Source: Hyphomicrobiales bacterium (GTDB lineage Bacteria; Pseudomonadota; Alphaproteobacteria; Rhizobiales; Rhizobiaceae). From it: a DNA stretch of 64,000 nucleotides. Below are positions 42,093-62,014 of the stretch, piece after piece (position 1 is the stretch's first letter; each line of letters starts with the position of its first letter). Under the pieces are notes generated by a model. That model was given only the letters and a program-made list of their open reading frames with translations. It did not search any database and was not told the origin of the DNA. The stretch is taken from assembly GCA_900473205.1 (NCBI GenBank), contig UCLB01000001.1:62001-126000 (forward strand), given 5' to 3'. A program made the translations under genes and the position numbers.

Positions 42093-43400
42093 CTAGTTGG
42101 GATAAGGAAGTCCATACCGGTCTCTTATCGTCCGCCCCTCATATTCCCGCGGATATACGCCTCTATCCTGCAAAATTGGCACGACCTGATCCACGAATTC
42201 GATGATGTCATCCGGCGCGCGTGGAGGCTGGAGGGTATAGCCATCTACGGTTCCGTCCTGCCATAGATCGATGATGCCATCTGCTACCTCTTCGGGGGTG
42301 CCCAATATCAGGCGGTGATGTCCCTCGGAGCGTCGTACGACTTGGCGGGCCGTCAGCCGCTCATGGGTCAGGAGATCGGAGAGGCCGAGTCCCATCCCGA
42401 CTGCCCATTGGCGGTTCTGGTCCGGTATGAATTCTTCGGCATTCAGTACGGCATCCGGGTCGAAGCGGTCCGGATCGAGGCCATTTTCTTTGATGAAGCG
42501 GGCGATTAGTCCATCTTCAGAACCCGTGCCGCTGAAGAGTTCGTGTTTTCTCAAGGCCTCCTCGCGGGTTTTACCTAAAATAACGACAAGGCCGGGGACG
42601 ATGCGGATGCCGGAGGGATTGCGACCGAAGGCGGTCGCGCGGTCTCGCACTTTCTTGCCGAAAGCCTGCCCGGCGGGCCGTGAGAGAATGTTGCAATAGA
42701 TGATTTCGCCATGGCGGGCGGCCAGATCAATGCCACTTTCCGACGCGCCTGCTTGGGCGATGACAGGGTGGCCTTGCGGTCCGCGCGGCACGTTGAGCGG
42801 ACCTTTGATGGTGAAGAATTCGCCTTCATGCTCGATGGCTTGTGCGCTCGTCGCGTCCCAGAACCGGTCCTCGGGCACGTTTTGTTCTCGTCGCTCATCC
42901 CAACTGGACCAGAGTTTTTTGGCGACGTCCAAAAATTCCGTGGCCTTCGCGTAACGCTCGCTGCGCGGTGGCAACGGTTCATTGCCAAAATTGGCTGCGA
43001 CATTTGGATTGAAGGAAGACACAACATTGATGATCAGGCGACCACCCGAGACGATGTCGATGGACTGCGTCCGTCTCGCCAGATTGTAAGGGGAGTTATA
43101 GGTGGAGGAAATTGTCGCCACGAAACCGATGTCTGGCACTTGGGCCGCAAGGGATGTGGACAGGATCAGCGGGTCGATGGTGTGAAAGGGCCGGCTGAGC
43201 GGATCGGTGAGAAGTGCTGGATGATCCGACAAAAACACCGCATCGAACCGGCCCCGATGAGCGATTTCCGTCAGGCGGCGATAATAGTCGATATCATTGA
43301 TGTCATGCCGGGTGCCGGTGCGGTATTTCCAGGCATTGGGGAGATAGCCGGTAGTGTTGATACCAACGTTCAGGTTCAGCCGGCGTTGAGGTTTGCTCAT
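42093..43400 (-). CDS. FMN-dependent monooxygenase of the DszA/NtaA/SnaA group
   Basis: 435 residues, luciferase-like fold. Family segments are GRFDAVFLSDHPAL, DIGFVATISSTYNSPYNLARRTQSIDIVSGGRLIINVVSS, the RYAKATEFLDVAKKLW helix and GPLNVPRGPQGHPVIAQAGASESG. Members use FMNH2 and oxygen to cleave C-S or C-N bonds (sulfones, nitrilotriacetate, S-alkyl cysteines). The start overlaps the stop of the DszC-like gene by 4 bp, so the two act together as in dszA/dszC. It is the last gene of a four-gene operon. Needs a reductase such as the nitroreductase-like or NmrA-like neighbours, or one elsewhere. Confidence 0.88.
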   Translation of the reverse strand: MSKPQRRLNLNVGINTTGYLPNAWKYRTGTRHDINDIDYYRRLTEIAHRGRFDAVFLSDHPALLTDPLSRPFHTIDPLILSTSLAAQVPDIGFVATISSTYNSPYNLARRTQSIDIVSGGRLIINVVSSFNPNVAANFGNEPLPPRSERYAKATEFLDVAKKLWSSWDERREQNVPEDRFWDATSAQAIEHEGEFFTIKGPLNVPRGPQGHPVIAQAGASESGIDLAARHGEIIYCNILSRPAGQAFGKKVRDRATAFGRNPSGIRIVPGLVVILGKTREEALRKHELFSGTGSEDGLIARFIKENGLDPDRFDPDAVLNAEEFIPDQNRQWAVGMGLGLSDLLTHERLTARQVVRRSEGHHRLILGTPEEVADGIIDLWQDGTVDGYTLQPPRAPDDIIEFVDQVVPILQDRGVYPREYEGRTIRDRYGLPYPN

Positions 43401-44650
43401 GCGTTTGTTTTTTCTTTGTCTGTCTGCACCGCTACCCCGACGCCACCATTGGCTGGCGGAGAGACACCGTTGACGGCGAAATCGCCGACGATCCGGTCGT
43501 GGTAGATGCGTGGATTATGGGAGGTGATGGTGCGTGCGTTGCGCCAGTGACGATCAAGTCCATGGCTGCGTTTGGCCGAGGAGGCACCAAGGGCGTCGAA
43601 AAGTGTGGTGGAAGCTTCGAGTATTAGTTTGCTGACAACCGTCACGGATTGGCTGACCTCGATTTCCGCATTGCGGTTGGTAAAGGCGATCTGCTCTTCG
43701 TCGCCAGAAAGATTGGCGTCATATGCGGCTTGCAGCGCCTCCGCTGCCTTCAGCACGATGGCGCCCGCAGTATAGGCTGCACCCCGCACCTGACCGACGA
43801 CCTGAAGGATTTGCGGATCATCAGCATAGCGGCCCGCATTGCTACGCTGATAGACCCGCTTTCGATCCGCCACCAGGCGCGCGAGATCCGAGGCCGCAGC
43901 GCGGCCAATGCCGGCAAGCGATGCCAGATGAACGAGTTGGAAAAATCCGCCGGAGTAGCTGAAACGAAGCGCGCTGGGTTTGATCAGTTCATCTGCGATA
44001 GCCACATCGGTAAAACGCGCCGTGCCACTTGCCGTCAGCGCCTGCCCGAAGCCATCCCAATCGTTGACGATGTCAACGCCGGGCGCACGCGTCGGCACGA
44101 GTGCACCGATAGGCTGGCCATCTCCGTCCACGGCACCAAGCGTGATCCAGTCTGCGTAAAGGGAGCCAGTGGTGTAGTATTTTTCGCCATTCAGGCGCCA
44201 GCCACTTCCGTCACGGATCAATTGTGTCGAATAGGTCCCAAGCCGCGTGTCACCCAGTTCTGAGAAGCCGCTGCCGATGGTGTCGCCCTTTCCTAGCCGG
44301 GCAAGCCAGATGTCGCGCCATGCACTCGGCGGGGCGTTGAGCAGATCTTCGGTAAAACCGAAATGGCTGCGATAGGCATTGGTAAGGTTGGGATCGGCTT
44401 CAGCCAATTCGATGATTAGGCCGAATAGTTCGGGCAGGGTGAGACCGAGACCACCATGCTGTTCCGGCAGGCGCAGTTTGGAAAAGCTTGCCGCTTTCAA
44501 CGCTTCATATGCGTCGAAGCGAAGTTGCCTGTCGAGATCGCGCGCCACCGTATCGGTGGCAATCTGCGCGAAAATCGGACGAAACCGGTTTGCAAATGTT
44601 TCATAGCGTTTGCTGGGTGGGGAGCCCCAGGCGTGCAGGGTGTCGGTCAT
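43397..44650 (-). CDS. Acyl-CoA-dehydrogenase-fold monooxygenase (SfnB/DszC type)
   Basis: 417 residues. It has the acyl-CoA dehydrogenase fold (LRLPEQHGGLGLTLPELFGLI; GWRLNGEKYYTTGSLYADW), but the C-terminal motif HGLDRHWRNARTITSHNP is that of DszC/SfnB flavin monooxygenases, with the catalytic-type histidine. DszC oxidises thioether sulfur to sulfoxide and sulfone with FMNH2. Coupled by a 4-bp overlap to the DszA-like gene downstream. A paralogue lies at 59.6-60.9 kb. Real substrate unknown. Confidence 0.85.
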   Translation of the reverse strand: MTDTLHAWGSPPSKRYETFANRFRPIFAQIATDTVARDLDRQLRFDAYEALKAASFSKLRLPEQHGGLGLTLPELFGLIIELAEADPNLTNAYRSHFGFTEDLLNAPPSAWRDIWLARLGKGDTIGSGFSELGDTRLGTYSTQLIRDGSGWRLNGEKYYTTGSLYADWITLGAVDGDGQPIGALVPTRAPGVDIVNDWDGFGQALTASGTARFTDVAIADELIKPSALRFSYSGGFFQLVHLASLAGIGRAAASDLARLVADRKRVYQRSNAGRYADDPQILQVVGQVRGAAYTAGAIVLKAAEALQAAYDANLSGDEEQIAFTNRNAEIEVSQSVTVVSKLILEASTTLFDALGASSAKRSHGLDRHWRNARTITSHNPRIYHDRIVGDFAVNGVSPPANGGVGVAVQTDKEKTNA

Positions 44651-44782: not shown

Positions 44783-45871
44783 TCAGGCGGCGGCCTGTGC
44801 ACTTTGCTCGAAATCATGGAGGTGAAGCGCGATCTCAAAACCACGCCGTTTCAGCCAGTGCGCAACTATGCGTGCACGCGCTCCCAAAAGGTCATCAACG
44901 AGAATGACCCGTGCCCCGCGCACCGCAATGCTGCGGTAGGCAACGCCAAGCAGTTGGCCGCCTTCCGATGAAATCGAGCCCGGCAGATGCGACGCCGCGA
45001 ACTCTTCTGGGGTGCGAACGTCGAGGAAATAAGTCGTCCGGTCGTTATCCGCCAACCAGCGTTCGACGGTGACACTGTCGATGAAGGTGAGGTCATCCTC
45101 GCTCGAGAGGGTTTCGAGACGAGACTGTGCAAATCGCTTTGCTGCCGGACTTGCAGGCGGGTAGATGCCCGATCGGCCCGTCTCCAGTTCAAAGCCATCG
45201 TCCGTCCAGCCGCGCGTTCCATCATGCAGGTAGCTGACGCTGTTTTCGATGCCTGCATTGATCAAGGTCTGTGCGCCAAGGATTGCGCGGGGGAGCCCAG
45301 CGCAGGACACCACGATCTTCGTTTCCGCGGAGGGAACGAGGTCTGCAAAACGCAGCAACAGTTCCGCGCCCGGTACGTTGATAGCGCCGGGAACATGCGC
45401 CTTTTCATATTCAGGCGTGGTGCGGGTGTCGATAACAAGGACGTCTTCTTCAGCGTCCTTCCATGCCTTGAGTTCACGGGCAAAGATAACGGGCGTATTC
45501 TTTTCCGCGCGCACCTTCTGCACGAAAGGAACGCCGGGAATGTCAAAGGTTGGGAGCTTGTCCAAACCGGCTTCGATCCATGCAGGTATACCGCCATCAA
45601 GAAAATGGATGTTGCTCCAACCGTTTGCTTTCAGCTGTTCAGCCGTGTGGTGGCCAATGTCCGTGCCATCATCCACCAGCACTGTGCGAACGGATCGGCG
45701 CGGAACGAAACGATCAAGCTCGGCATCCAGCCTGTCGGCGGGCAGATTGGTCGCAAACAGTGGTGAGGCATAGCCGACAACGTCCGTGGGCCGGATATCG
45801 ATAACGGCCAGTTCCTGGCTGTCGCCAAGCCAGTTGACGAGCGTGTTCTTGCTGATGGAGTGTTCTGACAT
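44783..45871 (-). CDS. Triple-rhodanese-domain sulfurtransferase
   Basis: 362 residues from the ATG at 45871 (AAGGAG 6 bp upstream). Three rhodanese-like domains: about 10-105, 125-235 and 255-355. Only the middle one has the catalytic cysteine (C190 in VVSCAGLPRAI); the equivalent loops are VLVDD (64-68) and ILVDD (323-327) in the outer domains, so they are catalytically dead and perhaps structural. The enzyme would transfer sulfane sulfur, for example from thiosulfate. It stands between a binding protein (23 bp upstream) and the DszC-like gene, 132 bp downstream. Confidence 0.88.
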   Translation of the reverse strand: MSEHSISKNTLVNWLGDSQELAVIDIRPTDVVGYASPLFATNLPADRLDAELDRFVPRRSVRTVLVDDGTDIGHHTAEQLKANGWSNIHFLDGGIPAWIEAGLDKLPTFDIPGVPFVQKVRAEKNTPVIFARELKAWKDAEEDVLVIDTRTTPEYEKAHVPGAINVPGAELLLRFADLVPSAETKIVVSCAGLPRAILGAQTLINAGIENSVSYLHDGTRGWTDDGFELETGRSGIYPPASPAAKRFAQSRLETLSSEDDLTFIDSVTVERWLADNDRTTYFLDVRTPEEFAASHLPGSISSEGGQLLGVAYRSIAVRGARVILVDDLLGARARIVAHWLKRRGFEIALHLHDFEQSAQAAA

Positions 45872-45894
45872 GCTGATCTCCTTGGGTAATGTGA

Positions 45895-47499
45895 TCAAGA
45901 ATTTGGATCGAGCCAAAGGTCGCCAAAGCTATAGTTGAGCCCCTGCGCGCCGGTGACGTAGTTCTTCACCTTCTTGTGGGCTACAATCTGGCTGCCTGCT
46001 GCCACAAGGTCCACCGAGGCGACTTCGTCGTGGATGAGATGCTGAAAGCTGCTCCATATCTCTTTACGTTTCGCCTCATCCGGCTCGATGGCTGCCGCCT
46101 CGAGCAAGGCGTCGGCTTGCGGGTTCGAATAGTGAGCGGCGTTGGAGAAGGGCAGGCCAAGCTTGAAGTTTTTGCTCCAATAGGCACGCTGTATGCCAAG
46201 TGAAGGGTCGAAAGTATTGGAGAGGGATTCCACCACAAGATCGAAGGCGCGGTCGGTGTAAACCGTCTTGAGATAGGTCGGCAGATCGTATTTGCGGATT
46301 TCGACCGCGATGCCTATCTTTTCGAGTTGGTTGCGAATGACATCCGCGTAACCCGGCGTCAGGTAGGAATTATAGGTCAGCCGCACCGGGAAACGTTTGC
46401 CATCCGCCTTGCGTGGATATCCGGCTGCATCCAGAAGCTTTTCGGCCTCTTTCGGATCGTCCGGATAAGCTGTGACCGAAGGATCATACCATTTGGGCAG
46501 CGCGGTGCTGACGGGGCTCGGCGAAATCTGACCGTAACCGAACAGCGCCACATTGACGATTTCTTCGAGATTGATCGCCTTGGCGATGGCTAGACGGACG
46601 TCTTTCTTTGCGAAGATTTCGTTGTCGTAATTGAAAAACAGCTGCTGCTGTGGCCCCGCATAGGCATAGGTCGTCGTATCCAGCACCAGATCGGGATTTT
46701 GCTTCAGCCGTTCCAGATCGGTCAGCGGAACGGGGTTATCACCGATATCAACCTCGCCGGTTTCCAGCGCAACCGCGCGCGCAGCCGGGTCAGTAATGAT
46801 GCGCAGGACAATGCGGTCGAGATAAGGTTTGCCAGCATCCCAATAATCCGGATTGCGCTCGAAAATGAGATGGCTGCCGGGTGTCCACTCCGTCAGCTTG
46901 AACGGGCCGGTGCCGATGGCGGTTTTGAGTGTCTGCCCATCGCCGGGCTTCAGCGTTTCGAAAATGTGTTTCGGCACGATTGGGGATTCAGAACTGGATT
47001 GCGCAGCAATCAGGAACGGCGCCGGTTTGGACAGAACGATGATTGCGGTCAGCGGGTCGGGCGTTTCGACGGCGGTCACATTCTGGTAGGTGATGCGACC
47101 GCGCGGATGCACCTCCTTGAGCCGGAAAATTGAAAAGGCCACGTCATCGGAAGTAAAATCATTGCCGTCATGCCATTTCACATTCGGGCGCAATTTAAAC
47201 GTATAGCGAAGATGATCTTCCGAGACCGACCATTCGGTTGCCAAAAGCGGTTGCGGTGTAAGATCGAAATCGAACGTTAGCAGGCCTTCTACGATTTTCG
47301 GGCCGATGGCCTGACCCGTTCCCGAAGATGTATTGATGGCAAACAGGGCATTGCCCGGATCGACCCGATAAAGAAGATTGAGCGTGCCGCCGGAAACCGG
47401 GCGCCGCGTGGCATCCGCTGCAAAGACGGAGCCTGGCAGGGCGGTGCCTGCGGTGGCTAGAAGTAACAACTGGTTGAATTCACGACGTCCTATAGCCAT
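45895..47499 (-). CDS. ABC transporter substrate-binding protein, family 5 (peptide/nickel type), Tat-exported
   Basis: 534 residues. The signal peptide contains GRREFNQLLLLATAG, a twin-arginine motif, so export folded through Tat is likely. Family 5 features are LATEWSVSEDHLRYTFKLRPNVKWHDGNDFTSDDV and TGPFKLTEWTPGSHLIFERNPDYW. It resembles the protein at 55.6 kb most closely in this window. No permease or ATPase lies in its operon; the Opp-type transporter at 62-64 kb is a candidate partner. First gene of the rhodanese-DszC-DszA operon. Confidence 0.9.
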   Translation of the reverse strand: MAIGRREFNQLLLLATAGTALPGSVFAADATRRPVSGGTLNLLYRVDPGNALFAINTSSGTGQAIGPKIVEGLLTFDFDLTPQPLLATEWSVSEDHLRYTFKLRPNVKWHDGNDFTSDDVAFSIFRLKEVHPRGRITYQNVTAVETPDPLTAIIVLSKPAPFLIAAQSSSESPIVPKHIFETLKPGDGQTLKTAIGTGPFKLTEWTPGSHLIFERNPDYWDAGKPYLDRIVLRIITDPAARAVALETGEVDIGDNPVPLTDLERLKQNPDLVLDTTTYAYAGPQQQLFFNYDNEIFAKKDVRLAIAKAINLEEIVNVALFGYGQISPSPVSTALPKWYDPSVTAYPDDPKEAEKLLDAAGYPRKADGKRFPVRLTYNSYLTPGYADVIRNQLEKIGIAVEIRKYDLPTYLKTVYTDRAFDLVVESLSNTFDPSLGIQRAYWSKNFKLGLPFSNAAHYSNPQADALLEAAAIEPDEAKRKEIWSSFQHLIHDEVASVDLVAAGSQIVAHKKVKNYVTGAQGLNYSFGDLWLDPNS

Positions 47500-47898: not shown

Positions 47899-48744
47899 AT
47901 GACGATACATTCTTCTTCCATCACTGACGGCGAAGTGCCACAGCAGCGCCTTGCCGCGCGCTACGGCGTGGATCAGGATTTCGCGCTGCCTTTCTGGAAC
48001 AGCACCGTCGATGCCCTTCTGAACCATCGCACCGCGCGCGCCTATCTACCGAAACCATTGCCCGAGGGCACGTTGGAACTTTTGGTGGCAGCGGCCCAGT
48101 CCGCGCCGACCTCGTCCAATCTTCAGGCCTGGAGCGTCGTTGCGGTTCAGGACAAGGACCGAAAGGCACGGCTTGCTGGTTATACCGGCGGCAACGCCCA
48201 TATTCTGGCCGCGCCGCTTTTCCTTGTCTGGCTTGTCGATCTGAAGCGCCTCAGAACCGTTGCCCAGCAACATGGCAATGAGGGAGAGGGGCTGGATTAT
48301 CTGGAAAGTTTCTTGATCGGCGCCATCGATGCGGCTCTTGCGGCACAGAATGCCGTCGCGGCAATCGATAGTCTTGGTCTCCGCTCATGCTACGTGGGCG
48401 GTGTCCGCAACCAACCGCATGACGTAGCCCGTGAACTTCAGTTGCCGCCGGAAACAGTCGCGGTCTTTGGCCTCACCGTCGGATATCCCGACCCTGACGT
48501 CATCACCGACGTGAAGCCGCGTCTGCCTCAATCGTCGGTGCTGTTTCATGAGACATACGCCGGAACGCCTGAGACGGATTTGAGTGCTTACGACGACGTG
48601 CTGAAAGCATTTCAGCTCAAGCAAAAGCTGCCACAGGCGGGCTGGACAGGGCCGATTTCAAAGCGTGTCGAGAATGCAGCGGCGCTGAAGAGCAGGGCGG
48701 AATTGACGGAAACTTTGCGGACACTCGGCTTTCCGATTAAGTAA
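47899..48744 (+). CDS. Nitroreductase-family FMN oxidoreductase
   Basis: 281 residues, NfsA-like. The FMN site is seen in HRTARAYLPKPLP (near residue 35) and AAQSAPTSSNLQAWSVV; a second contact region is NAVAAIDSLGLRSCYVGGVRN. Such enzymes reduce quinones, nitro groups or free flavin with NADPH. Next to several reduced-flavin-dependent monooxygenases it could supply FMNH2, like DszD does functionally, although it belongs to a different family. A hairpin follows it, so downstream genes may have their own promoter. Confidence 0.85.
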   Translation: MTIHSSSITDGEVPQQRLAARYGVDQDFALPFWNSTVDALLNHRTARAYLPKPLPEGTLELLVAAAQSAPTSSNLQAWSVVAVQDKDRKARLAGYTGGNAHILAAPLFLVWLVDLKRLRTVAQQHGNEGEGLDYLESFLIGAIDAALAAQNAVAAIDSLGLRSCYVGGVRNQPHDVARELQLPPETVAVFGLTVGYPDPDVITDVKPRLPQSSVLFHETYAGTPETDLSAYDDVLKAFQLKQKLPQAGWTGPISKRVENAAALKSRAELTETLRTLGFPIK

Positions 48745-48780: not shown

Positions 48781-48897
48781 ACCCGCTTTTGGAAAAGCGA
48801 TCTCACCAACACCATGATAAATAGTATAGTATATCTATAGATTATATAATTATCCTTATAGCGTGCCTGATACAGCTCGTATTTAAGGATGATGGCC

Positions 48898-49953
48898 ATG
48901 GCAGACGCAGCCCTTCGCAAGGTAACGCAACCAGACACCGTGTGGTATGCTCGCTGCCCGGCACCGACACCTTTATCGATTGCTGCGCAACTCGGTTGGA
49001 TCGAAGAAGGTTTTGCGGCTCATGGCATCGGAGTCACCTCCATTCGAGATGCGACCGATCCGGCCATTCGCCAGAGCCACTTCGATCACCGGCTGGACTG
49101 GTCCTTTCGCCAAGGCGGCAATATCCCGCCGATCTGGACGCGCTCGAAAGGTCGCCAGACCCGGCTGATCGGTCTGACGCGGACGGATGAGTTTCAGGCC
49201 GTTATCGCCCTGCCGGAAAGCGGCATCACCAAAGGCGCGGATTTGAAGGGCCGACGAATAGGTCTGCCGAAACGACCAAATGAGGTCATCGACTTTCAGC
49301 GCGCCACGTCGCTCAAGGGTATCGTCTCGGCTCTAACGATCTCCGGCCTTGTGCCGGATGATGTGGAATTGGTGGATATCGGCGCGTCCGAGCCGGTTCT
49401 GCTCAACCCTACGGATCAACGGCTTCATGGCCTCAAGCGTCGTTTTCCTTACGGCGAAGAAATCGCGGCGCTGCACCGCGGCGAAATCGACGCCTTCTTC
49501 GTGAAGGGTGCCGAGGGGATAACGGTTGCCAACCTGCTCGGCGCTCGTGTCGTCGTTTCCACCGGATTTCATCCAGACCCGAAAATCCGCATCAATAATG
49601 GTACGCCGAGACCACTGACTGTCGATGCGACTTTTGCGGACGAGCGCCCGGATTTGGTTGCCGAATTGGTTTCGGTCGTGCAGCGGGTCTCTCAATGGGC
49701 AAATGATAACCCGCAAGATGCGGTTCGCTTTATTGCGCGCGAAATCGGGGTGAGTGAAGACGCCGTTCTGGCCGCCAATGGCCCTGACGTGCATCGCCAA
49801 CTGGTACTCGATCTAGATCCTGCCGAAGTGGATGCCATCAGCCACTTCAAGGACTTCCTCCTCGAATGGAAGTTCATTCCCGCCGATTTCAATGTTCACG
49901 ACTGGCTCGACCCGCGCCCGCTGGCAGCGTCGCGTTCGTCGCTTGTGAAGTGA
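48898..49953 (+). CDS. DszB-like sulfinate desulfinase (binding-protein fold, cytosolic)
   Basis: 351 residues from the ATG at 48898 (AAGGA 8 bp upstream). At first sight it looks like an aliphatic-sulfonate ABC binding protein, but it has no signal peptide or lipobox. It carries C20 in YARCPAPTPL, H61 in QSHFDH and R71 in FRQGGNIPP. These match Cys27, His60 and Arg70-x-Gly-Gly of the dibenzothiophene desulfinase DszB, with the same ten-residue His-Arg spacing and nearby TRLIGLT and DLKGRRIG segments. DszB releases sulfite from an aromatic sulfinate. Neighbouring DszA- and DszC-type genes support an enzyme role. The substrate is probably not dibenzothiophene. A diverged binding protein is the alternative. 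Confidence 0.75.
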   Translation: MADAALRKVTQPDTVWYARCPAPTPLSIAAQLGWIEEGFAAHGIGVTSIRDATDPAIRQSHFDHRLDWSFRQGGNIPPIWTRSKGRQTRLIGLTRTDEFQAVIALPESGITKGADLKGRRIGLPKRPNEVIDFQRATSLKGIVSALTISGLVPDDVELVDIGASEPVLLNPTDQRLHGLKRRFPYGEEIAALHRGEIDAFFVKGAEGITVANLLGARVVVSTGFHPDPKIRINNGTPRPLTVDATFADERPDLVAELVSVVQRVSQWANDNPQDAVRFIAREIGVSEDAVLAANGPDVHRQLVLDLDPAEVDAISHFKDFLLEWKFIPADFNVHDWLDPRPLAASRSSLVK

Positions 49954-49963
49954 GGGCTGGGAT

Positions 49964-50860
49964 ATGGCGGTGGACATTCTTGTAACGGGTGCAACGGGCA
50001 AGCTGGGAAAGCTTGTCGTGCCACGGCTTCTGGATGCGGGCAAAACGGTTCGCGTGCTGACCCGGCGTCCGCAGGACGCGTATGATCTATGGGGCGACAA
50101 GGTTGAGGTCGCGCAGGGAGATTTCGCTGACCCGGCGACAGTGAGGGAGGCAGCGCGGGGCGCTCAGAAACTTTTCCTGCTTTCGCCGATCAGCGAAGCA
50201 CTCACCGCTCATCAAAACGCCGCCATTGATGCCGCGAAAGCCGCCGGTGTTCTCAGGATCGTCAAGATATCCGGGTCTGACTGGACCTTGCGAAATGCTG
50301 ACCGCTCCATATCCGGTGCCGCCCATGAGGCGGTAGAAAAGCATCTGGCCGCCAGCGGTATTGCGCATGCCATTCTGCGGCCCAATGCCTGGATGCAGGT
50401 ATCTCTTGCCCCGGTTATCGCCGCTGCCATTAAAGGCGAGGATTTACCAGGTCGATACGGAAATGCTGCCGTGTCCTATATCGATGCGAAGGATATTGCC
50501 GATGTCGCAGTTCAGGCTTTGCTCGATCACTCGATCTCATCCGACCCCTTGGTTTTGACGGGTGCAGAGGCGTTGACCTCACTTGAGGTCGCACGTATCG
50601 CGGCCCGAATATTACAGCGACCGATTGGCATATCTGACGCCTCATCCACTCCTCTGCCATCCCATCTCGATGCATTCGAACGACGCGCCATCGGCGAGTT
50701 CGTTGAGTTAATCGGTGCCGGGCTGGCTGTACCAGTAACACAGACGGTGTCGCGCATCACCAGCAAGCAGCCACGCACTGTGGAGGAATTTTTGCACAGC
50801 CATCTCGGTCCTACCCAAACGCAAACACACGGTCCGAAGGGAGAAACGACATGGCAGTGA
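49964..50860 (+). CDS. NmrA-like NAD(P)-binding protein
   Basis: 298 residues, atypical short-chain dehydrogenase. The cofactor motif is VTGATGKLGKLVVPRLLDAG at the N-terminus; no catalytic Y-x-x-x-K is evident, as in NmrA/quinone-oxidoreductase-2 relatives. It may be a redox sensor or an NADPH:quinone/flavin reductase. It starts 10 bp after the desulfinase gene and overlaps the next monooxygenase gene by 10 bp, so all three are co-expressed. Confidence 0.85.
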   Translation: MAVDILVTGATGKLGKLVVPRLLDAGKTVRVLTRRPQDAYDLWGDKVEVAQGDFADPATVREAARGAQKLFLLSPISEALTAHQNAAIDAAKAAGVLRIVKISGSDWTLRNADRSISGAAHEAVEKHLAASGIAHAILRPNAWMQVSLAPVIAAAIKGEDLPGRYGNAAVSYIDAKDIADVAVQALLDHSISSDPLVLTGAEALTSLEVARIAARILQRPIGISDASSTPLPSHLDAFERRAIGEFVELIGAGLAVPVTQTVSRITSKQPRTVEEFLHSHLGPTQTQTHGPKGETTWQ

Positions 50861-52023
50861 CTGCGCCGATTACCGGAGATCTGGAGCTCAAAGGGCCGTT
50901 CGATTTTGCAGACAGCCCGCTTAGCAGTGCTGCACGACAGCCCTTGATGCTGGGACTTTTTCTCAATCTTCAAGACATCAATTTTTCAAGCCTGCCGACC
51001 AGCAACAGCTGGACCTTCGATTACAATGTCGAACTGGTGAGGCGAGCGGAGGAGCTGGGTTTCGAGTTGGCTTTCAGCCGAACCCAATGGCTGCCGAAGG
51101 GTGGTTACGATGGGGATTCATCGCTCGACAGCTTCGTTGCCTTGGGCGCCATGGCAGCGGTGACGAAAAGCATTTTGCTGATTTCGACCATTCATGTCCT
51201 TTACGGCCCGCTCCATCCCCTGCATCTGGCCAAGTATGGAGCAACGCTAGATCATATCGCCAAGGGTCGGTGGGGCATCAACATTGTTACCGGTCACCGC
51301 GCCATCGAGCATGAAATGTTCGGTTGGCAGCGCATCGAGCACGACAAGCGCTACGATATGGCGAGCGAACTTTTCGACGTGTTGCACCGGCTGTGGAGCG
51401 AAACCGAGAACTTCTCCCATGAGGGAAAGCTCAATCCATGGGCCATCAGCAACGGCTGGATCACGCCGAAGCCTGCGTTCGGTCGGCCCAACCTCGTCAC
51501 GGCCACAGGCTCTCCAGCCGGCATCGATTTTGCGGCGCGCCATTCCGATCTGGTGTTCGTCACATCGCCCGGCGGTGCCCACATCGATAGCGCGTTGGAA
51601 ACGCTTCCCGACCACATCGCGACCATCAAAAACCGCGCAAAGGTCTATGGGCGGCAGGTGAAAACGATCATCAATCCCATCATCGTCAGCCGCGATACGG
51701 AAGCCGAGGCAATCGCCTATGCGGACGCCATAGAAGCGGGTAAGCCGCAGCCGGGCGGCACGCGCGCTTTCGCGGCTACCAATTATGAAAGCGATGCGCA
51801 TGCCTGGCGTGGACGCGGCGACCCTCGCCACAAGCAGGGGCGCAATCTCGGCGGCAATATCGAGATCATCGGTTCACCGGAACAGGTGGTCGAGCAACTG
51901 GTGGCGCTCAAAGCTGTCGGCATCGATGGTGTTCAGCTCAACTTCTACGATTTCCGAGAAGACCTGGAATATTTCGGTGACCGTATTCTGCCGCTGATGA
52001 AAGAGGCTGGGCTGAGGCTTTGA
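50851..52023 (+). CDS. FMN-dependent monooxygenase, SfnG/SsuD-like
   Basis: 390 residues, luciferase-like fold. ELVRRAEELGFELAFSRTQW, LISTIHVLYGPLHPLHLAKYGATLDHIAKGRWGINIVTGH and EHDKRYDMASELFDVLHRLW match the alkanesulfonate/dimethyl-sulfone monooxygenase group (SsuD, SfnG), which cleave the C-S bond of sulfonates or sulfones and release sulfinate or sulfite. It differs from the DszA/NtaA-type enzymes elsewhere in the window. Coupled to the NmrA-like gene; the M20 hydrolase follows after 81 bp. Confidence 0.87.
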   Translation: MAVTAPITGDLELKGPFDFADSPLSSAARQPLMLGLFLNLQDINFSSLPTSNSWTFDYNVELVRRAEELGFELAFSRTQWLPKGGYDGDSSLDSFVALGAMAAVTKSILLISTIHVLYGPLHPLHLAKYGATLDHIAKGRWGINIVTGHRAIEHEMFGWQRIEHDKRYDMASELFDVLHRLWSETENFSHEGKLNPWAISNGWITPKPAFGRPNLVTATGSPAGIDFAARHSDLVFVTSPGGAHIDSALETLPDHIATIKNRAKVYGRQVKTIINPIIVSRDTEAEAIAYADAIEAGKPQPGGTRAFAATNYESDAHAWRGRGDPRHKQGRNLGGNIEIIGSPEQVVEQLVALKAVGIDGVQLNFYDFREDLEYFGDRILPLMKEAGLRL

Positions 52024-52104: not shown

Positions 52105-53304
52105 GTGAATATTGCCGTCGATCCCGTCAAAACACCCGCACTTGAGATTATCGATCTGATCGCAACATATGTTCCCGAACTGGTCGATATCAGGCACGAT
52201 CTGCACCGCCACCCGGAAATCGGCTTCGAGGAAGTGCGCACCTCCGGCATCGTCGCGGAAAAGCTGACGTCGTGGGGTATCGAGGTTCATCGCGGATACG
52301 GCAAGACCGGTCTCGTCGGCGTGCTTCGCGGCAAACATGCAGGCAACCGCGTCATCGGTCTGCGCGCAGACATGGATGCTCTGCCGATGCCGGAAGAAAC
52401 TGGTTTACCCTACGCTTCGGTCTATCCCGGCAAGTTCCATGGTTGCGGGCACGATGTCCACACCACGATCCTGTTGGGAACGGCACGTTATCTTGCCGAA
52501 ACGCGGGATTTCGCAGGCTCCGTGGTTTTCATTTTCCAGCCTGCCGAGGAAGGGTTGGGCGGCGCGCGCGCAATGATCGCGGACGGGCTGTTCAAAGATT
52601 TCCCCGTGGACGAGCTTTACGGGCTGCACAATTCGTCACACGCCGCACCCAATCACCTCAAGGTATCGCCGGGAACGATCCTGGCAGGGGCTGATTTCTT
52701 CGATATTCGATTTAAGGGCAAAGGCGCGCATGCCGCCCATCCGGATGTGGCGCATGACCCCGTGCCCGCAATCGGTGAACTCATCACCGCTTTGCAGACG
52801 ATTGTCAGCCGCAATGTGTCGCCCACCGAACCTGCGGTCCTGTCGATCACACGCATCGAAGCCGGGTCCGCCTATAATGTCATTCCAGAGACGGCTTCGA
52901 TTGCTGGAACGGTGCGGGCCTTCTCGGATACGGTGCGCGAAACCATTCGCTCGCGCATCCGCACGATTTCGGAGCATATCGCGCAGGCCCATGGTCTTTC
53001 GGCAGAGGTGGATATTCGCGATATTTTCTCGGTTCTGACCAATGACGACGCATCGGTCGAAATCGTTGCCGATGTTGCGCGCCAGGTCTTGGGCGAGGCT
53101 CGTGTATCGACGGAGCCCAGCCGTTTCATGGGCAGCGAGGATTTCGCCGATCTCCTGAAACATGCGCCTGGTGCGTTTTTCACGCTCGGCCATTCAGGCA
53201 CTGTCCCAGCCCATAATCCCGGCTTCATCGTCGATGACGCGATCCTTCCGGTCGGCGCAACACTGTTTGCGCGTCTGGTGGAAAGCCGTCTGAAGCCGCT
53301 CTGA
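52105..53304 (+). CDS. M20-family amidohydrolase (N-acyl-amino-acid hydrolase)
   Basis: 399 residues from a GTG with GAGG upstream. Metal-site motifs are RHDLHRHPEIGFEE, GLRADMDALPM, FHGCGHDVHTT and QPAEEGLGG, with the late ligand region FMGSEDFA. The group includes hippurate hydrolase and N-acetylcysteine-conjugate deacetylases. In a sulfur operon it may free S-substituted cysteines from N-acyl conjugates, comparable to the deacetylases that accompany NtaA-type monooxygenases in Bacillus S-alkylcysteine salvage. No signal peptide, so cytosolic. Confidence 0.88.
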   Translation: MNIAVDPVKTPALEIIDLIATYVPELVDIRHDLHRHPEIGFEEVRTSGIVAEKLTSWGIEVHRGYGKTGLVGVLRGKHAGNRVIGLRADMDALPMPEETGLPYASVYPGKFHGCGHDVHTTILLGTARYLAETRDFAGSVVFIFQPAEEGLGGARAMIADGLFKDFPVDELYGLHNSSHAAPNHLKVSPGTILAGADFFDIRFKGKGAHAAHPDVAHDPVPAIGELITALQTIVSRNVSPTEPAVLSITRIEAGSAYNVIPETASIAGTVRAFSDTVRETIRSRIRTISEHIAQAHGLSAEVDIRDIFSVLTNDDASVEIVADVARQVLGEARVSTEPSRFMGSEDFADLLKHAPGAFFTLGHSGTVPAHNPGFIVDDAILPVGATLFARLVESRLKPL

Positions 53305-53345: not shown

Positions 53346-54941
53346 ATGGATCTGACGAGGCGTAAGACATTGCTTTTGGGTGCGGCGTTCGGCGGGGCAG
53401 CACTTCTGCCATCGCTGTCCTTTGCCGCGCCACAGACACCCAGCAAGGGCGGCATCGTGACGTTTGCCGGGCTGGGCGAGCCTACAACGCTCGTTCCGCT
53501 CTCGGACAGCAATACGCGCACGCGCGCCATTTCCACGAAAATCCTTGAAGGACTGGTGCGGTTCGACAGCGAGTTCAAGCCGCATCCTGTTCTGGCAGAA
53601 AGCTGGGATGTGTCCAGTGATGGTCTGCGCTATACGTTCAAGCTTCGCCAAGGTGTCAAATGGCACGACAGCAAAGATCTCACTTCGGCGGATGTGAAAT
53701 TCTCGCTGCTGGCCTTCAAGAAGGTGGGCCCACGCGGGCGCATCACATTTGCAAGCATTGCCGATATCGAAACACCCGATCCGCTGACTGCCATCGTGGT
53801 GCTTTCCAAGCCGGCACCCTATTTGCTGCGGGCACTCGTCGGTGGTGAAACGCCGATCCTGCCTGCTCATGCCTACCCGTCGGAGAATTACAGTGGAAGT
53901 CCGAACGGCAATGCGCCTATCGGTACCGGGCCTTTCATCTTCGAAGAGTGGAAGCGCGGTAGCTATGTGAAGCTCAAGCGTAACCCGAACTACTGGCAGG
54001 CCGGGCTGCCGCATCTGGATGGCTTCATCGCACGTTTCGTTGCGGACTCTGCATCAGCGACAATCGCGGTGGAAACGGGTGAGGCAGACTACGCGACCGA
54101 TGTGTCCTACGGCGATCTGGAGCGCCTGCGGCAAGATCCGAAGCTGGCCGTCGATGTCTATACGGATGCCTATCTGAACAACGCAGCCGTCTTCGAGTTC
54201 AATCTCGAAAATCCCATACTCGCCAAGAAAGAGGTTCGCCACGCGCTGGCGCATGCCATCGACCGCGATTTTATCAATGACGCCATTTTCTATGGCACGG
54301 CAAAGCCTGCCGGATCGAACATTCCCTCGGTCTTTGCGACCTATAATGACGAAGCGCCGTTCAACTATCCGTTTGATCTTGCCAAGGCCAACGCCTTGCT
54401 CGACGAAGCGGGTTATCCGAAAGGCGCGGATGGGACACGGTTTTCGCTGCGCCTCGCCTTCCTGCCGTCGGATGTTTTCCGCAAAACCTCTGAATATCTG
54501 CGCTCGTCATTCGGCAAGCTCGGGGTCAAGGTCGAGACTCTCGACGGTGATCTTGCGACCTTCATCAAGCGTGTCTACACCGAGCGCGGCTTCGATCTGA
54601 CCGTCAACGGTATCAGCCGCCTATTCGACCCGACAGCTGGCGTACAGCGGCTCTACTGGTCCGATGGCATCAAGAACCCGGCACCTTATGTCAACGCGGC
54701 GCATTATAACAATCCAAAGGTGGATGACCTTTTCCGTGCCGCTGCCATTGAGAGCGATGAGGCTAAGCGCGCCGCGCAGTTCAAGGAAATCCAGAAGATT
54801 ACCGGCGATGAATTGCCGAACTTCTCCATCGTTGCGCTGCCGACAGTCATTTTGCGAAACGCAAATCTGCAATCCCTGGTCACGACCATCGATGTGGCCT
54901 ACAGCGACCTCGCGACTGCATGGAAGCAACCGCAAAGCTGA
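53346..54941 (+). CDS. ABC transporter substrate-binding protein, family 5, Tat-type signal
   Basis: 531 residues. The signal LTRRKTLLLGAAFGGAALLP has a twin arginine. Family features are LAESWDVSSDGLRYTFKLRQGVKWHDSKDLTSADV and GTGPFIFEEWKRGSYVKLKRNPNYW. It is somewhat diverged from the other two family-5 proteins in the window, suggesting a different ligand. It follows the M20 hydrolase by 41 bp, so the imported compound may be the hydrolase substrate. A terminator comes 23 bp after the stop. Confidence 0.9.
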   Translation: MDLTRRKTLLLGAAFGGAALLPSLSFAAPQTPSKGGIVTFAGLGEPTTLVPLSDSNTRTRAISTKILEGLVRFDSEFKPHPVLAESWDVSSDGLRYTFKLRQGVKWHDSKDLTSADVKFSLLAFKKVGPRGRITFASIADIETPDPLTAIVVLSKPAPYLLRALVGGETPILPAHAYPSENYSGSPNGNAPIGTGPFIFEEWKRGSYVKLKRNPNYWQAGLPHLDGFIARFVADSASATIAVETGEADYATDVSYGDLERLRQDPKLAVDVYTDAYLNNAAVFEFNLENPILAKKEVRHALAHAIDRDFINDAIFYGTAKPAGSNIPSVFATYNDEAPFNYPFDLAKANALLDEAGYPKGADGTRFSLRLAFLPSDVFRKTSEYLRSSFGKLGVKVETLDGDLATFIKRVYTERGFDLTVNGISRLFDPTAGVQRLYWSDGIKNPAPYVNAAHYNNPKVDDLFRAAAIESDEAKRAAQFKEIQKITGDELPNFSIVALPTVILRNANLQSLVTTIDVAYSDLATAWKQPQS

Positions 54942-55606: not shown

Positions 55607-57202
55607 ATGAGTTTTTCCAGACGCCAGTTCCACAAAATCGCGCTTGCTGCAGGGGCGTTCGTTGCCCTTCCCGGCGGTTCCTTCGCGGCAGCCGAAGAGC
55701 CGGTTTCAGGCGGCACGTTGAAGATCGTCTATTTCCCGGAGCCGACCCAGCTCGTCGCGATCAACACCAGCGCTGGTGGTCCGCAGTTTGTCGGCTCCAA
55801 GATTTATGATGGGCTTTTGACCTATGATTATGATCTGACACCCAAGCCAAGTCTGGCGAAGGCGTGGTCAGTATCAGCCGATGGGTTGGAATATGTGTTC
55901 CATCTACAGCCGAACGCGAAATTTCACGATGGCAAACCCGTCACTTCGCAAGATGTCGCCTTCTCTGTTTTGCGCCTGAAAGAAGCTCATCCGCGCGGTC
56001 GTGCCACCTTCTCACAGGTCGAGAGCGTCGATACATCGGACCCGCTTGTTGCGAAACTCAAGCTCGCCAGGCCTTCTCCGGGGCTGATTACGGCGCTGGC
56101 TGCGTCGGAATCGCCGATTGTGCCGAAACACATATTCGAGACGTTCAAGCCGACCGAAAACACCAAAACGGACCAGATCATCGGCAGCGGACCTTTCGTT
56201 CTGAAAGAGTGGACGCCGGGCAGTCACATTCTTTTGGAAAAGAACGCCGATTACTGGGACCAGCCGCGCCCGCATCTGGACCGGGTCATCATCCGGCTGA
56301 TCAACGATGCGGGCGCGCGGGCGGCAGCGCTTGAAACCGGGGAGGGCGATATCGGTCACAATCCGGTGGCCCTGTCTGATCTGGAGCGCTTGAAAGCCGT
56401 GCCGTCGCTGAAGGTAGACGACCAGATTTATGCCTATGCGGGTCAGCAAAACCAGCTCGTCATCAATCTCGAGAACGAATATCTCAAGAGCCTGAAGGTG
56501 AGGCAGGCTATCGCCCACGCCATCAACGTTCCCTCCCTGATCGATATCGTGCTTTACGGTTATGCTGTGCCGTCTCCCACGCCCATCAGCCCCGGTCTGC
56601 CGAAATTCCACAATCCGGATATCGGCTTTGCCAAGTTTGACACTGCGCTTTCGGAAAAGCTGCTGGATGAGGCGGGCTTCCCGCGCAAGGGGGATGGCAA
56701 ACGCTTCAAGCTGAGGGTAACGACCAATCCATTCAATCCGCAGACTTATTCCGATTTTATCGCTCAGGCCCTGATCAAGATCGGTATCGAAGCTGATATT
56801 CAGAAGTTCGATTTCGGGACCTATGTGAAAGTCGTCTATACCGACCGGGCCTGGGATCTTTCGGTGGAATCACTCTCCAACACGTTCGATCCGACGGCTG
56901 GCGTTCAGCGTGTGTACTGGAGCAAGAACTTCAAGATCGGCCTGCCTTTCTCCAATGCCAGCCACTACGAAAACCCCGAGGTCGACCGCTTGCTGGAAGC
57001 GGCGGCCGTGGAGCCGGATATCGAGAAGCGCGCCAAGCTGTTCAAAGAGTTTCAGGTCATCATCGCCAAGGACCTGCCTGTCATCAATCTCGTCTCACCC
57101 ATTCAGCCGGTCGTCGGCAATATCATGGTCAAGGATTATGCCGTTGGCGCCGAGGGCCTCAGCGGCAATCTGGCACAGGCATGGCTGACGAAAGAAGCCT
57201 GA
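55607..57202 (+). CDS. ABC transporter substrate-binding protein, family 5, Tat-exported
   Basis: 531 residues. SFSRRQFHKIALAAGAFVALPG is a good twin-arginine signal. It is a close paralogue of the 45.9-47.5 kb protein: both share LERLK after a long common stretch, TGPF/SGPF-LTEWTPGSH segments and SVESLSNTFDP near residue 420. It is followed 64 bp later by a DszA-type monooxygenase gene, as the first copy shares an operon with a DszA-like gene: two parallel import-and-oxidise modules. Confidence 0.9.
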   Translation: MSFSRRQFHKIALAAGAFVALPGGSFAAAEEPVSGGTLKIVYFPEPTQLVAINTSAGGPQFVGSKIYDGLLTYDYDLTPKPSLAKAWSVSADGLEYVFHLQPNAKFHDGKPVTSQDVAFSVLRLKEAHPRGRATFSQVESVDTSDPLVAKLKLARPSPGLITALAASESPIVPKHIFETFKPTENTKTDQIIGSGPFVLKEWTPGSHILLEKNADYWDQPRPHLDRVIIRLINDAGARAAALETGEGDIGHNPVALSDLERLKAVPSLKVDDQIYAYAGQQNQLVINLENEYLKSLKVRQAIAHAINVPSLIDIVLYGYAVPSPTPISPGLPKFHNPDIGFAKFDTALSEKLLDEAGFPRKGDGKRFKLRVTTNPFNPQTYSDFIAQALIKIGIEADIQKFDFGTYVKVVYTDRAWDLSVESLSNTFDPTAGVQRVYWSKNFKIGLPFSNASHYENPEVDRLLEAAAVEPDIEKRAKLFKEFQVIIAKDLPVINLVSPIQPVVGNIMVKDYAVGAEGLSGNLAQAWLTKEA

Positions 57203-57266: not shown

Positions 57267-58619
57267 ATGAGCAGGACATCCGAAAAACTCGTTCTCAACG
57301 CATTCATCTATCCCGGCGGCCATCATGAAGCAGCCTGGCGGCATCCGCAGTCTGAGCCGCATCGCGTGACCGACATCAAGCTTTATCAGGAGATCGCGCG
57401 GCGCGCCGAAGCGGCCAAACTGGACGCGATTTTCTTTGCCGATGCGCCGGCGCTGGATAGCAACATTCGTTATGCCGCCCGCCATCGCTTGGAGCCGATC
57501 ACCATGCTTGCCGCACTTGCGGCGGTAACGGAGAAGATCGGCTTCATCGCCACCGCGTCCACCACCTATTACGAGCCCTATAATCTGGCGAGGCTGTTTG
57601 CCTCCGTTGATCATATCAGTGGTGGCCGTGTCGGCTGGAACATCGTTACGACATCGGCAGATGCGGCAGCCGCCAACTTCAACCTCGAAAAGCACCCGCC
57701 CCATGCCGACCGGTATCGTCAGGCGACCGAGTTTGTCGATGTGGTGACGAAGCTCTGGGATAGCTGGGAAGACGATGCCATCGTGGCAGACAAGGAAAGC
57801 GGTCTGTTTGCCGATACGGACCGCATCCATCCGGCCAATCACAAGGGTGATTTCTATCAGGTTCGTGGCGCTTTGAACCTGCCGCGTTCGCCGCAGGGCC
57901 GTCCGGTCTATGTGCAGGCTGGGTCTTCAGAAGATGGGCGGGGTTTTGCGGCGCGCTATGCCGAAGCGATTTTCACCGCGCACCAGACGCTTGAAAGCGC
58001 CAAGAGCTTCTATTCCGACATCAAGAAACGCGTGGCCGCAGCGGGGCGCAATCCCGCACATGTAAAAATCCTGCCCGGCATCAGCCCCTTCATCGCCTCG
58101 ACGGAAACGGAAGCACGCAAGCTGGAGGCCGAATTCAACGACCTCGTCCAGCCAGCCTTTTCTCTAGCGCAGCTGAACCGCATCACCGGCATCGATCTCG
58201 GTTCAGCCGATCTCGACAAACCCTTGCCGCGAGAAGCGGTTGAAGCAACACGCGCCCAAGCCGACAGCAGCCGTCATCAGCTTGTTCTCGATGTGATCGA
58301 CAGGGAAAATCCGACGATCCGGCAGTTATTGCACAGGCTTGCGGGCGGGCGTGGCCACAAGGTCATTGCCGGCACACCAGAGCAGGTGGCTGACTGGATC
58401 GAGACATGGTTCCGGGAGGGCGCTGCGGATGGATTCAACATCATGCCGCCGTGGCTCACGGGCGGGTTCGATATCTTCATCGATGAAGTCGTGCCGCTTC
58501 TTCAAAAGCGCGGCCTGTTCCGACTGGATTACAAGGGAGACACCCTGCGCGATCATTACGGCTTGCCGCGGCCTGAGAATATCTACACCGTGCCGACAGC
58601 CGCCAGAGAAAGTGCTTGA
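57267..58619 (+). CDS. FMN-dependent monooxygenase of the DszA/NtaA/SnaA group
   Basis: 450 residues. AKLDAIFFADAPALDSN, KIGFIATASTTYYEPYNLARLFASVDHISGGRVGWNIVTT, RYRQATEFVDVVTKLWDSW and GALNLPRSPQGRPVYVQAGSSEDG are the family segments, similar to the 42.1-43.4 kb copy. It ends DYKGDTLRDHYGLPRP, as does the other copy (EGRTIRDRYGLPYP). C-S or C-N bond cleavage with FMNH2 is the family reaction. Last gene of its operon, 9 bp from the convergent LysR stop. Confidence 0.88.
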   Translation: MSRTSEKLVLNAFIYPGGHHEAAWRHPQSEPHRVTDIKLYQEIARRAEAAKLDAIFFADAPALDSNIRYAARHRLEPITMLAALAAVTEKIGFIATASTTYYEPYNLARLFASVDHISGGRVGWNIVTTSADAAAANFNLEKHPPHADRYRQATEFVDVVTKLWDSWEDDAIVADKESGLFADTDRIHPANHKGDFYQVRGALNLPRSPQGRPVYVQAGSSEDGRGFAARYAEAIFTAHQTLESAKSFYSDIKKRVAAAGRNPAHVKILPGISPFIASTETEARKLEAEFNDLVQPAFSLAQLNRITGIDLGSADLDKPLPREAVEATRAQADSSRHQLVLDVIDRENPTIRQLLHRLAGGRGHKVIAGTPEQVADWIETWFREGAADGFNIMPPWLTGGFDIFIDEVVPLLQKRGLFRLDYKGDTLRDHYGLPRPENIYTVPTAARESA

Positions 58620-59625: not shown

Positions 59626-60867
59626 TCAGAAAACCCGGCCTTCTGCAAGGTGCGTGGTGGTGCCATTCAAATAGTAGTCACCGATGACCCGTGCCTTGTG
59701 CTGCAACGGATTGTGGTTGTAGACGGTGCGGATATTGCGCCAGTGCCGGTCGAAGTTGCGTTCGCTCGATGTGGCCGAACCGCCACCCAGTTCGTAAATG
59801 GTTGTCGCTACGTTCAAGGAAAGCTGGGAGGCGATGATCTGTGTGCGGGCAGTAGCAAGTGAGCCGTCAATAAGAGCGGCTTCTATCGCTGCTTCGTCAC
59901 CCGTCTGAAAGGTCAAAGCCGTCACATCCAGCGTGCGCGCCGCCTCGCGGATCAGCGTCTTGACCGCAAAGGCACCGGCGCTGAGCTCTCCGATCGTCTT
60001 CTGCACGAACGGGTCCTGATTGGCGGTTTCGGCGGCGCTGTGAAGCGTGGTGCGCGCCTGCTTCAGCACGTATTCGATGCCGTCTCTCACGGCGGCCTGT
60101 ACCGCACCAGTGGCGGATGCGGCCAGATGCAGTTGGCGCATAGCGGAGCAGTGACGCCCGATCTGGGTCGTCAGTCGCCGTGTCGTCAGTTCATGCGGTA
60201 AGACCTCGACATTATCCAGAAGCACACCGCCACTGGCGGTCATGCGCTGGCCCATGCTGTCCCAGTCATCAAGCACGGTGATGCCCTTGCGATCCAGCGG
60301 AATGAGAACACCAATCGGTTGTTCGTCGTCACCAATCGCGCTGAATGAACCGAAGTCCGCAAAGGCGGTGCCCGTGGCGTACCACTTCCGACCATTCAAT
60401 CTGTAACGGTCACCATCGGCGCTCAGGCGGGTGGTGATTTCACCGGGACGCTTGGTGCCCTGTTCCGTACTCGCACCCGCAAAAAGCTTGCCGGACAGCA
60501 CGTTCTCCAGATGCCTGCGGTCTTCAAGCTCGATGGGACCAAGCGCGAGGTGTTCGGTGAAATTGAAGTGGCTGCGCAGCGCATGCGGAATATTGCTGTC
60601 GGCTTCACCAAGGATCATCAATAGTTCGATGTAATCGGCAATGGAGCCGCCCGGTCCGCCCTTCGACTTGGGAATGCGCAGAGTGCCGAGTTTCGCTTGC
60701 TTGATGCGGGCAAAGACGTCGAAGGGCAATTCCCGCTCACGCTCGCGTCGGGCGGCGTCTTTTGCGGCAAAGGCTGCGATGTCTTTGGCACGCGACAGGA
60801 TTTCGTCACGGCTGGGCACGTCGGACAGGTTGGTGGTTTCTACGTTGGCTGTATTGGCGTTCGACAT
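59626..60867 (-). CDS. Acyl-CoA-dehydrogenase-fold monooxygenase (SfnB/DszC type), second copy
   Basis: 413 residues from the ATG at 60867 (AAGGA 9 bp upstream); an ATG at 60930 would add a low-complexity leader without a ribosome site. RIPKSKGGPGGSIADYIELL, LNGRKWYATGTAFADF and the C-terminal NFDRHWRNIRTVYNHNP are shared with the 43.4-44.7 kb paralogue and with DszC/SfnB. It would oxygenate a sulfur compound using reduced flavin. Lies between an aldo/keto reductase and the LysR gene in one operon with an ABC transporter. Confidence 0.85.
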   Translation of the reverse strand: MSNANTANVETTNLSDVPSRDEILSRAKDIAAFAAKDAARRERERELPFDVFARIKQAKLGTLRIPKSKGGPGGSIADYIELLMILGEADSNIPHALRSHFNFTEHLALGPIELEDRRHLENVLSGKLFAGASTEQGTKRPGEITTRLSADGDRYRLNGRKWYATGTAFADFGSFSAIGDDEQPIGVLIPLDRKGITVLDDWDSMGQRMTASGGVLLDNVEVLPHELTTRRLTTQIGRHCSAMRQLHLAASATGAVQAAVRDGIEYVLKQARTTLHSAAETANQDPFVQKTIGELSAGAFAVKTLIREAARTLDVTALTFQTGDEAAIEAALIDGSLATARTQIIASQLSLNVATTIYELGGGSATSSERNFDRHWRNIRTVYNHNPLQHKARVIGDYYLNGTTTHLAEGRVF

Positions 60868-60938
60868 CGCATTGGGTCCTTGAGCGGATCGGGTGGCCTG
60901 CGGCGCTGTTTGCACCGCAGGTTTTGTCATGATGGCAG

Positions 60939-61994: not shown

Positions 61995-62014
61995 GTTATG
62001 TACTCCTTGGATTG

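Follow-up and report, generated by a model that had tools for sequence, protein, structure and literature searches.

The window analysed here, 64,000 nucleotides of a Hyphomicrobiales contig (UCLB01000001.1), carries at 48898..49953 on the forward strand a gene whose product is filed as a binding protein and is, judging by its sequence, very probably an enzyme of the kind of the desulfinase DszB. The open reading frame is a real one of 351 amino acids counted from ATG 48898; an AAGGA ribosome site precedes this ATG at normal distance, and an alternative in-frame ATG upstream, at 48889, would add three residues. The first-pass annotation had read the frame as a possible sulfinate desulfinase with a catalytic cysteine, histidine and Arg-x-Gly-Gly motif, and C20 (in RCPAPTPL), H61 and R71-Q-G73-G74 are all found in its translation.

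The best phmmer match in the PDB is DszB (2de2, E 6.2e-16), and the next family is represented by the SsuA-like 3e4r at E 0.23. With a profile of 32 relatives the values are E 5.1e-23 for DszB versus E 0.011 for SsuA, and the equivalents of C20, H61 and R71-x-G-G are invariant in all 32. The phmmer alignment with 2de2 pairs C20 with C27, H61 with H60, R71 with R70 and G74 with G73. Agreement with DszB in both motif and spacing had been claimed; the pairing of the motifs stands, as does the His-to-Arg-x-Gly-Gly interval, which is identical, but the Cys-to-His interval differs (41 residues versus 33 in DszB). H61 falls within a predicted helix (residues 55–63) that would be the counterpart of the mobile 55–62 segment carrying His60 in DszB. 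The catalytic kind is a known one, and the window protein is, on sequence grounds, solidly a DszB homologue with an intact catalytic set, its function being assigned by homology.

Were the present label correct, the protein would be the substrate-binding component of an SsuA/TauA-type ATP-binding cassette (ABC) importer. It shares with SsuA and TauA the fold and the Pfam family NMT1, which it matches above cut-off, and its general resemblance to SsuA reaches 79.4 of the 163.5 bits set for TIGR01728 in NCBIfam, with TIGR01729 likewise under cut-off (16.7 of 304.25 bits). SsuA and TauA, however, are exported, have SsuBC partners and lack the Cys, His and Arg-x-Gly-Gly residues. The absence of a signal peptide was borne out: 12 of the 14 NMT1-family matches in the genome have signal-peptide-like N-termini, the exceptions being the two DszB-like proteins (N-termini were read by eye, with no dedicated predictor). 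We also found that a 100/100 branch splits 16 exported rows from 52 DszB and DszB-like rows in a phylogeny of DszB with binding proteins, a comparison that the earlier annotation had proposed (maximum likelihood, IQ-TREE, LG+C20+F+G4; 68 rows, none dropped by the program). The DszB rows form one clade (15 rows, 100/99), and the window protein stands outside it in a separate 35-row clade (100/98) that includes type I and type II rhizobial, Streptomyces, Burkholderia, Sphingobium, Variovorax and Paracoccus proteins. The full Cys/His/Arg-x-Gly-Gly set is present in 50 of the 52 non-exported rows and in none of the 16 exported ones, the two exceptions being Sphingobium TomTYG65_29800 (His to Asp) and P0169 (Cys to Gly). 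The median phmmer score of the window protein is 74.7 bits against DszB rows versus 11.7 bits against exported rows, and four DszB queries give medians of 55–72 bits for the 35-row clade and 7–17 bits for the exported rows.

The tree rows were chosen by hand: the window protein, 11 and 9 proteins from the two best-120 lists of relatives described below, 16 of 82 matches to a DszB query (15 DszB and P0203), fetched loci, and eight of the genome's 12 exported NMT1-family proteins; L107 and L109–L111 were excluded as short or weak. The 16 exported rows have signal- or lipoprotein-like N-termini by eye, and the genome's eight are whole open frames that include some non-protein upstream letters. 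Twelve rows, 11 of them exported and one from Rhizobium, sit on long branches, so kinship among the exported proteins is not trustworthy.

Gene context bears on the same question. Our context counts cover the best 80 of 560 loci from genome contigs (35 type I and 45 type II; many from close species, some incomplete), with neighbours assigned by best BLASTP match to our own reference set. SsuB-like genes occur in three and SsuC-like genes in none of the type I loci (two and one, respectively, of the type II loci); neither partner was recognised in the cluster to which the gene belongs (window plus L138), where the importer is of the Opp type and has family-5 binding proteins of its own. A binding-protein role is highly improbable, and we rejected an exported binding protein on the reading of the N-terminus and on the tree.

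Conservation of the signature extends well beyond the tree. Two homologue searches (E ≤ 0.001) returned 1107 and 2194 matches, overlap not removed, and the set is complete in 120/120 and 120/120 of the best 120 listed from each, besides the query of the first. With DszB as query it is complete in 75 of 82 matches; of the misses, five are fragments or gapped rows, and the others are P0169 and the exported-type P0203. P0169 (X2FZZ9, Rhodococcus erythropolis), whose database name is HPBS desulfinase, has Gly at the position of the catalytic Cys, possibly a sequencing error or the mark of a dead copy. Some relatives are already named dibenzothiophene desulfurization enzyme B, desulfurase or 2'-hydroxybiphenyl-2-sulfinate desulfinase. 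As far as their sequences tell, the relatives probably form a large, mostly mislabelled family of soil bacteria with other sulfur compounds as substrates.

The substrate pocket differs from that of DszB. Among the DszB pocket residues F61, W155 and F203, F61 alone is kept, as F62. W155 aligns with T137, a position held by Trp in 15/15 DszB rows versus Thr, Met, Ala or Ser in 35/35 rows of the window clade, and F203 falls opposite H177 in a stretch with gaps and weak modelling, where the pairing is unsure. DszB Y63 is replaced by H64 (33/35 clade rows) and the Trp or Phe at 225 by K203 (34/35). With only F61 of the three kept and both Y63 and residue 225 replaced, the substrate is probably not the biphenyl product of dibenzothiophene; an aryl, heteroaryl or alkenyl sulfinate that is smaller or more polar is the probable alternative. 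Such sulfinates fit the published mechanism of this kind of desulfinase, an electrophilic substitution by the Cys proton; alkyl sulfinates could alternatively be oxidised and processed by SsuD-type enzymes.

The features of the locus are collected in the table below; the operon that opens with the DszB-like gene runs through the NmrA, SfnG-like, M20 and two family-5 genes to the YtnJ-like monooxygenase gene at 57267..58619. The neighbours had been described as DszA-, DszC- and SfnG-type monooxygenase genes, which is right as to kind, but the exact families do not hold at curated cut-offs: both DszA-type genes are members of the NtaA/DmoA family, the gene at 43397 is SfnB-like (265 of 430.9 bits) with a DszC score far under cut-off (103 of 850), and a score of 189 of 383 bits leaves the SfnG-type gene short of its own cut-off. 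The dszABC operon order is not present at the window locus. Beyond the window end the cluster contains two permeases, another family-5 binding protein, another oxidase of the acyl-CoA-dehydrogenase fold and, beside Opp genes, a second DszB-like gene of type II that is 57% identical (G000:C49:129901-130902; L138 5818-6924).

Features of the DszB-like locus; positions are those of the window.
Feature	Position	Strand	Remark
NtaA/DmoA-family monooxygenase	42093..43400	-	nearest solved relative EDTA (ethylenediaminetetraacetate) monooxygenase, also DszA
SfnB/DszC-like oxidase	43397..44650	-	nearest solved relative TdsC, then MsuC
Rhodanese-domain protein	44783..45916	-
Family-5 solute-binding protein	45895..47499	-	divergent operon
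Nitroreductase-family flavoprotein	47899..48744	+	upstream; possibly a flavin reductase
Promoter-like element TAGTAYA-N6-CTATAGA	48822..48841	+	spacing identical in 16 type I loci examined (L008-L023)
DszB-like desulfinase gene (putative), type I	48898..49953	+	first gene of tight operon
C20 codon	48955..48957	+	pairs with catalytic Cys27 of DszB (alignment)
H61 codon	49078..49080	+	pairs with His60 of DszB (alignment)
R71-Q72-G73-G74 codons	49108..49119	+	pair with Arg70-x-Gly-Gly of DszB (alignment)
NmrA/NAD(P)-binding protein	49964..50860	+	10 nt past DszB-like stop
SfnG-like FMNH2-dependent monooxygenase	50851..52023	+	overlaps NmrA gene
M20 amidohydrolase	52105..53304	+	nearest solved relative YxeP, then an IAA (indole-3-acetic acid)-amino acid hydrolase
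Family-5 (Opp/GsiB-like) solute-binding protein	53346..54941	+
Family-5 solute-binding protein	55607..57202	+	second in same direction
NtaA/DmoA-family monooxygenase	57267..58619	+	nearest solved relative YtnJ/MoxC, also DszA
Second DszC-like oxidase (acyl-CoA dehydrogenase fold)	59626..60930	-	nearest solved relative 8cda, then TdsC
Aldo/keto reductase and two Opp ATPases	60939..63926	-

These neighbours, related to DszA and DszC, and the identical catalytic residues would also fit an ordinary DszB of the 4S pathway for dibenzothiophene, or a benzothiophene version of it, working with local DszA and DszC. There is a precedent in Gordonia terrae C-6, where, by the account in the available part of PMC3868597, the low-homology desulfinase BdsA and its operon act on benzothiophene, and the same account has Sinorhizobium sp. 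KT55 desulfurizing benzothiophene as well. Against this stand the low identity to the DszB rows (25–29%), the separate clade, the loss of W155 in all 35 clade rows and the failure of the gene at 43397 to reach the DszC cut-off; peptide-type transport and an M20 hydrolase would also be ill-suited to a hydrophobic fuel compound. A plain DszB, which we rejected on tree placement and pocket residues, is accordingly improbable, though these arguments bear less firmly on the benzothiophene version.

Several observations weigh against a desulfinase. The Cys-to-His spacing is 8 residues longer than in DszB, and the substrate-contacting S25 of DszB is A18 here and Thr in 33/35 clade rows. The kept His and Arg are weaker proof of catalysis than the kept Cys, since the available text of PMC6100217 gives the activity of DszB H60Q as only ~17-fold lower and R70 mutants as insoluble, R70 being taken as structural. 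Enzymes of unlike chemistry that share the periplasmic-binding-protein (PBP) fold also match (Thi5, MqnD and a dihydroxyphthalate decarboxylase). Single-sequence scores overlap at the edge, with the best exported row at 46.1 bits and the worst DszB row, the Cys-less P0169, at 42.3. The 82 matches of the DszB query, for which the 7999 most word-sharing candidates were scored, held no evident member of the window clade, yet included the exported-type P0203. Finally, within the DNA covered at each locus, a DszC-like gene of any kind occurs in just 17 of the 35 type I loci (41 of 45 type II).

The fold and the Cys/His/Arg site might, in that case, serve another reaction on a different anion, such as a decarboxylation or hydrolysis, so that the protein would be a DszB homologue and not a desulfinase. 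That several unrelated enzymes share the fold is in keeping with this, as are the residues conserved in the window clade but not in DszB, namely H64 (33/35), K203 (34/35) and R231, N233 and R238 (34/35), which imply a different ligand, and the remoter X group, which in R. leguminosarum adjoins 2-hydroxyacyl-CoA dehydratase genes. However, the three catalytic positions and the Arg-x-Gly-Gly motif are kept in all relatives of the two best-120 lists, and sulfur-type monooxygenases and a rhodanese lie nearby, with an msuE flavin mononucleotide (FMN) reductase and a cysteine dioxygenase at other loci. We regard a different reaction as unlikely.

We consider it likely that the window protein works in the cytosol, without a cofactor, as a sulfinate desulfinase of the DszB type, at a late, sulfur-releasing step. 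The original proposal of a desulfinase with a probably non-dibenzothiophene substrate is upheld by the sequence and predicted fold, by the place in the tree, and by the conserved motifs and the neighbouring genes; catalysis, step order and substrate are what we infer from them. R71 and the backbone of G74 would grip the sulfinate group, as described for DszB (available parts of PMC6100217 and PMC12168087). The 55–63 segment would close over the substrate and carry H61 into the site, and the thiol proton of C20 would take the place of the sulfinate on the carbon, yielding sulfite and R-H. Upstream of this step, an organosulfur compound would be taken up through the family-5 binding proteins and the Opp transporter, the M20 hydrolase possibly stripping an acyl group; the SfnB/DszC-like flavoenzymes would perform S-oxidation, and the NtaA/SfnG-like monooxygenases would cleave the C–S bond to give the sulfinate, with desulfination next.

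The imported compound is plausibly an S-conjugate, since the YxeP-like hydrolase and the YtnJ-like monooxygenase recall a salvage route of B. subtilis and the cluster's transporter belongs to the peptide class. CmoJ of that route is presumably YtnJ. The available parts of PMC10863075 and PMC9706529 describe the salvage of S-substituted cysteine by acetylation, cleavage and deacetylation (CmoO/CmoJ, YxeK/YxeP), and the former gives CmoJ as a homologue of YxeK and DszA. The likeness lies in the YxeP-related M20 hydrolase, which closely resembles IAA-amino acid hydrolases as well, and in the YtnJ-related monooxygenase; the B. subtilis route differs in that it returns cysteine and, in those parts of the two papers, no DszB-type desulfinase is named.

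The related loci repeat much of this arrangement. The 35 type I loci have an NtaA_A-type monooxygenase in 33, NmrA in 30, an SfnG-like gene in 16 and an M20 gene in 15, and the 45 type II loci all have OppB, C, D and F and the aldo/keto reductase, with an SfnG-like gene in 35; a luciferase-like monooxygenase (LLM) of any kind is found in 34/35 and 38/45, respectively. Type I and type II genes lie ~19 kb apart in several agrobacteria, and on pSymA of S. meliloti ml46 one copy of each stands in a single operon with the Opp transporter divergent; in strain 1021 DszB-like genes are at two places. A Variovorax locus adds the cysteine dioxygenase and metC, a Mesorhizobium locus the msuE FMN reductase and a rhodanese, and a Paracoccus locus an M20 aminoacylase. 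Occurrence is patchy, with the gene in 6 of 199 family genomes (E ≤ 1e-40) and 6 of 299 phylum genomes (E ≤ 1e-30), the window's genome included in both. From their likeness in layout to L098, the divergent S. meliloti operons sma2085-2077 (five genes) and sma2087-2101 (eight genes), described as up on loss of a pSymB segment (PMC5940162), would be operons of the DszB-like genes; 'sulf' does not occur in the available part of that text.

The closest known system is DszB itself (PDB 2de2, 2de3, 2de4), with which the window protein shares the catalytic Cys, His and Arg-x-Gly-Gly, the two-lobed PBP fold, the lack of a signal peptide and DszA-/DszC-related neighbours. Its own clade, the replaced Trp155 and Trp/Phe225, the longer Cys–His interval, the lack of the dszABC order, and the peptide-type transporter with M20 hydrolase set it apart. 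BdsA (bdsABC) is, by the available description in PMC3868597, likewise an analogue of DszB with low homology, its operon also encoding DszC-like and SsuD-like monooxygenases and lying beside ABC transport genes; it differs in being actinobacterial, and the comparison is by description only. Two possible precedents, a sulfolane degrader and G. alkanivorans 135, were dropped, both being reported without dszB in the available text (PMC6395730, PMC11852219). The DszB of dibenzothiophene-desulfurizing Chelatococcus is uninformative on the window clade because its peptide matches R. erythropolis DszB (PMC4839641, available part). Among the papers listed by our searches of the open-licence PMC literature, we found none that describes the rhizobial or Streptomyces DszB-like clade.

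More tentatively, and at less than even odds, DszB could be one branch of a large cytosolic desulfinase family (rhizobia, Streptomyces, Burkholderia, Sphingobium, Variovorax) that frees sulfite from sulfinates of the aryl, heteroaryl or alkenyl type. These substrates would be soluble in water, probably of plant or conjugate origin, and imported as peptide- or cysteine-like conjugates. If so, there would be an organosulfur route without a sulfonate step whose key enzyme is mostly annotated as a binding protein. Should the desulfinase assignment of the window protein be right, many 'binding protein' entries would become candidate desulfinases, as all 240 listed relatives keep the signature, and weak matches may be true binding proteins. 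The origin of DszB would be open to study, and the family would supply natural variants of an enzyme described in the available text of PMC12168087 as a slow, product-inhibited step of biodesulfurization. The question of substrate is directly testable because the laboratory model S. meliloti has two copies in one operon.

Three further loci have arrangements of their own. In Sphingobium TomTYG65 two DszB-like genes named monooxygenase (L095 6516-7568 and 9001-10116) lie near ssuD-type genes, one of them with Asp for the catalytic His. A Streptomyces DszB-like gene (L006 7971-12651) lies directly 5' of an exported-type solute-binding protein, permease and ATPase set, followed by a further solute-binding protein and an LLM, so that enzyme and import proteins adjoin under one annotation. 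A Rhizobium pair (L007 7947-9122 and L113 6001-7167) retains the Cys, His and Arg-x-Gly-Gly residues, but its placement is remote and weak (85/29); the neighbours of the L113 gene are 2-hydroxyacyl-CoA dehydratase and activase genes, rhodaneses and a sulfate permease.

Upstream of the window gene, the promoter-like element was considered as a sulfur regulon box and rejected as such, its mismatched genome matches being not above chance. The only exact genome match to the shortened pattern AGTAYA-N6-CTATAGA lies upstream of the 48898 gene, and 26 further matches have one or two mismatches (13 forward and 14 reverse overall versus 50 and 41 in the control). With one exact match and the remaining 26 no more than chance, the element looks specific to the DszB-like gene. 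Many of the type I loci examined also have, farther upstream than the element, the inverted repeat GGAAA-N4-TTTCC.
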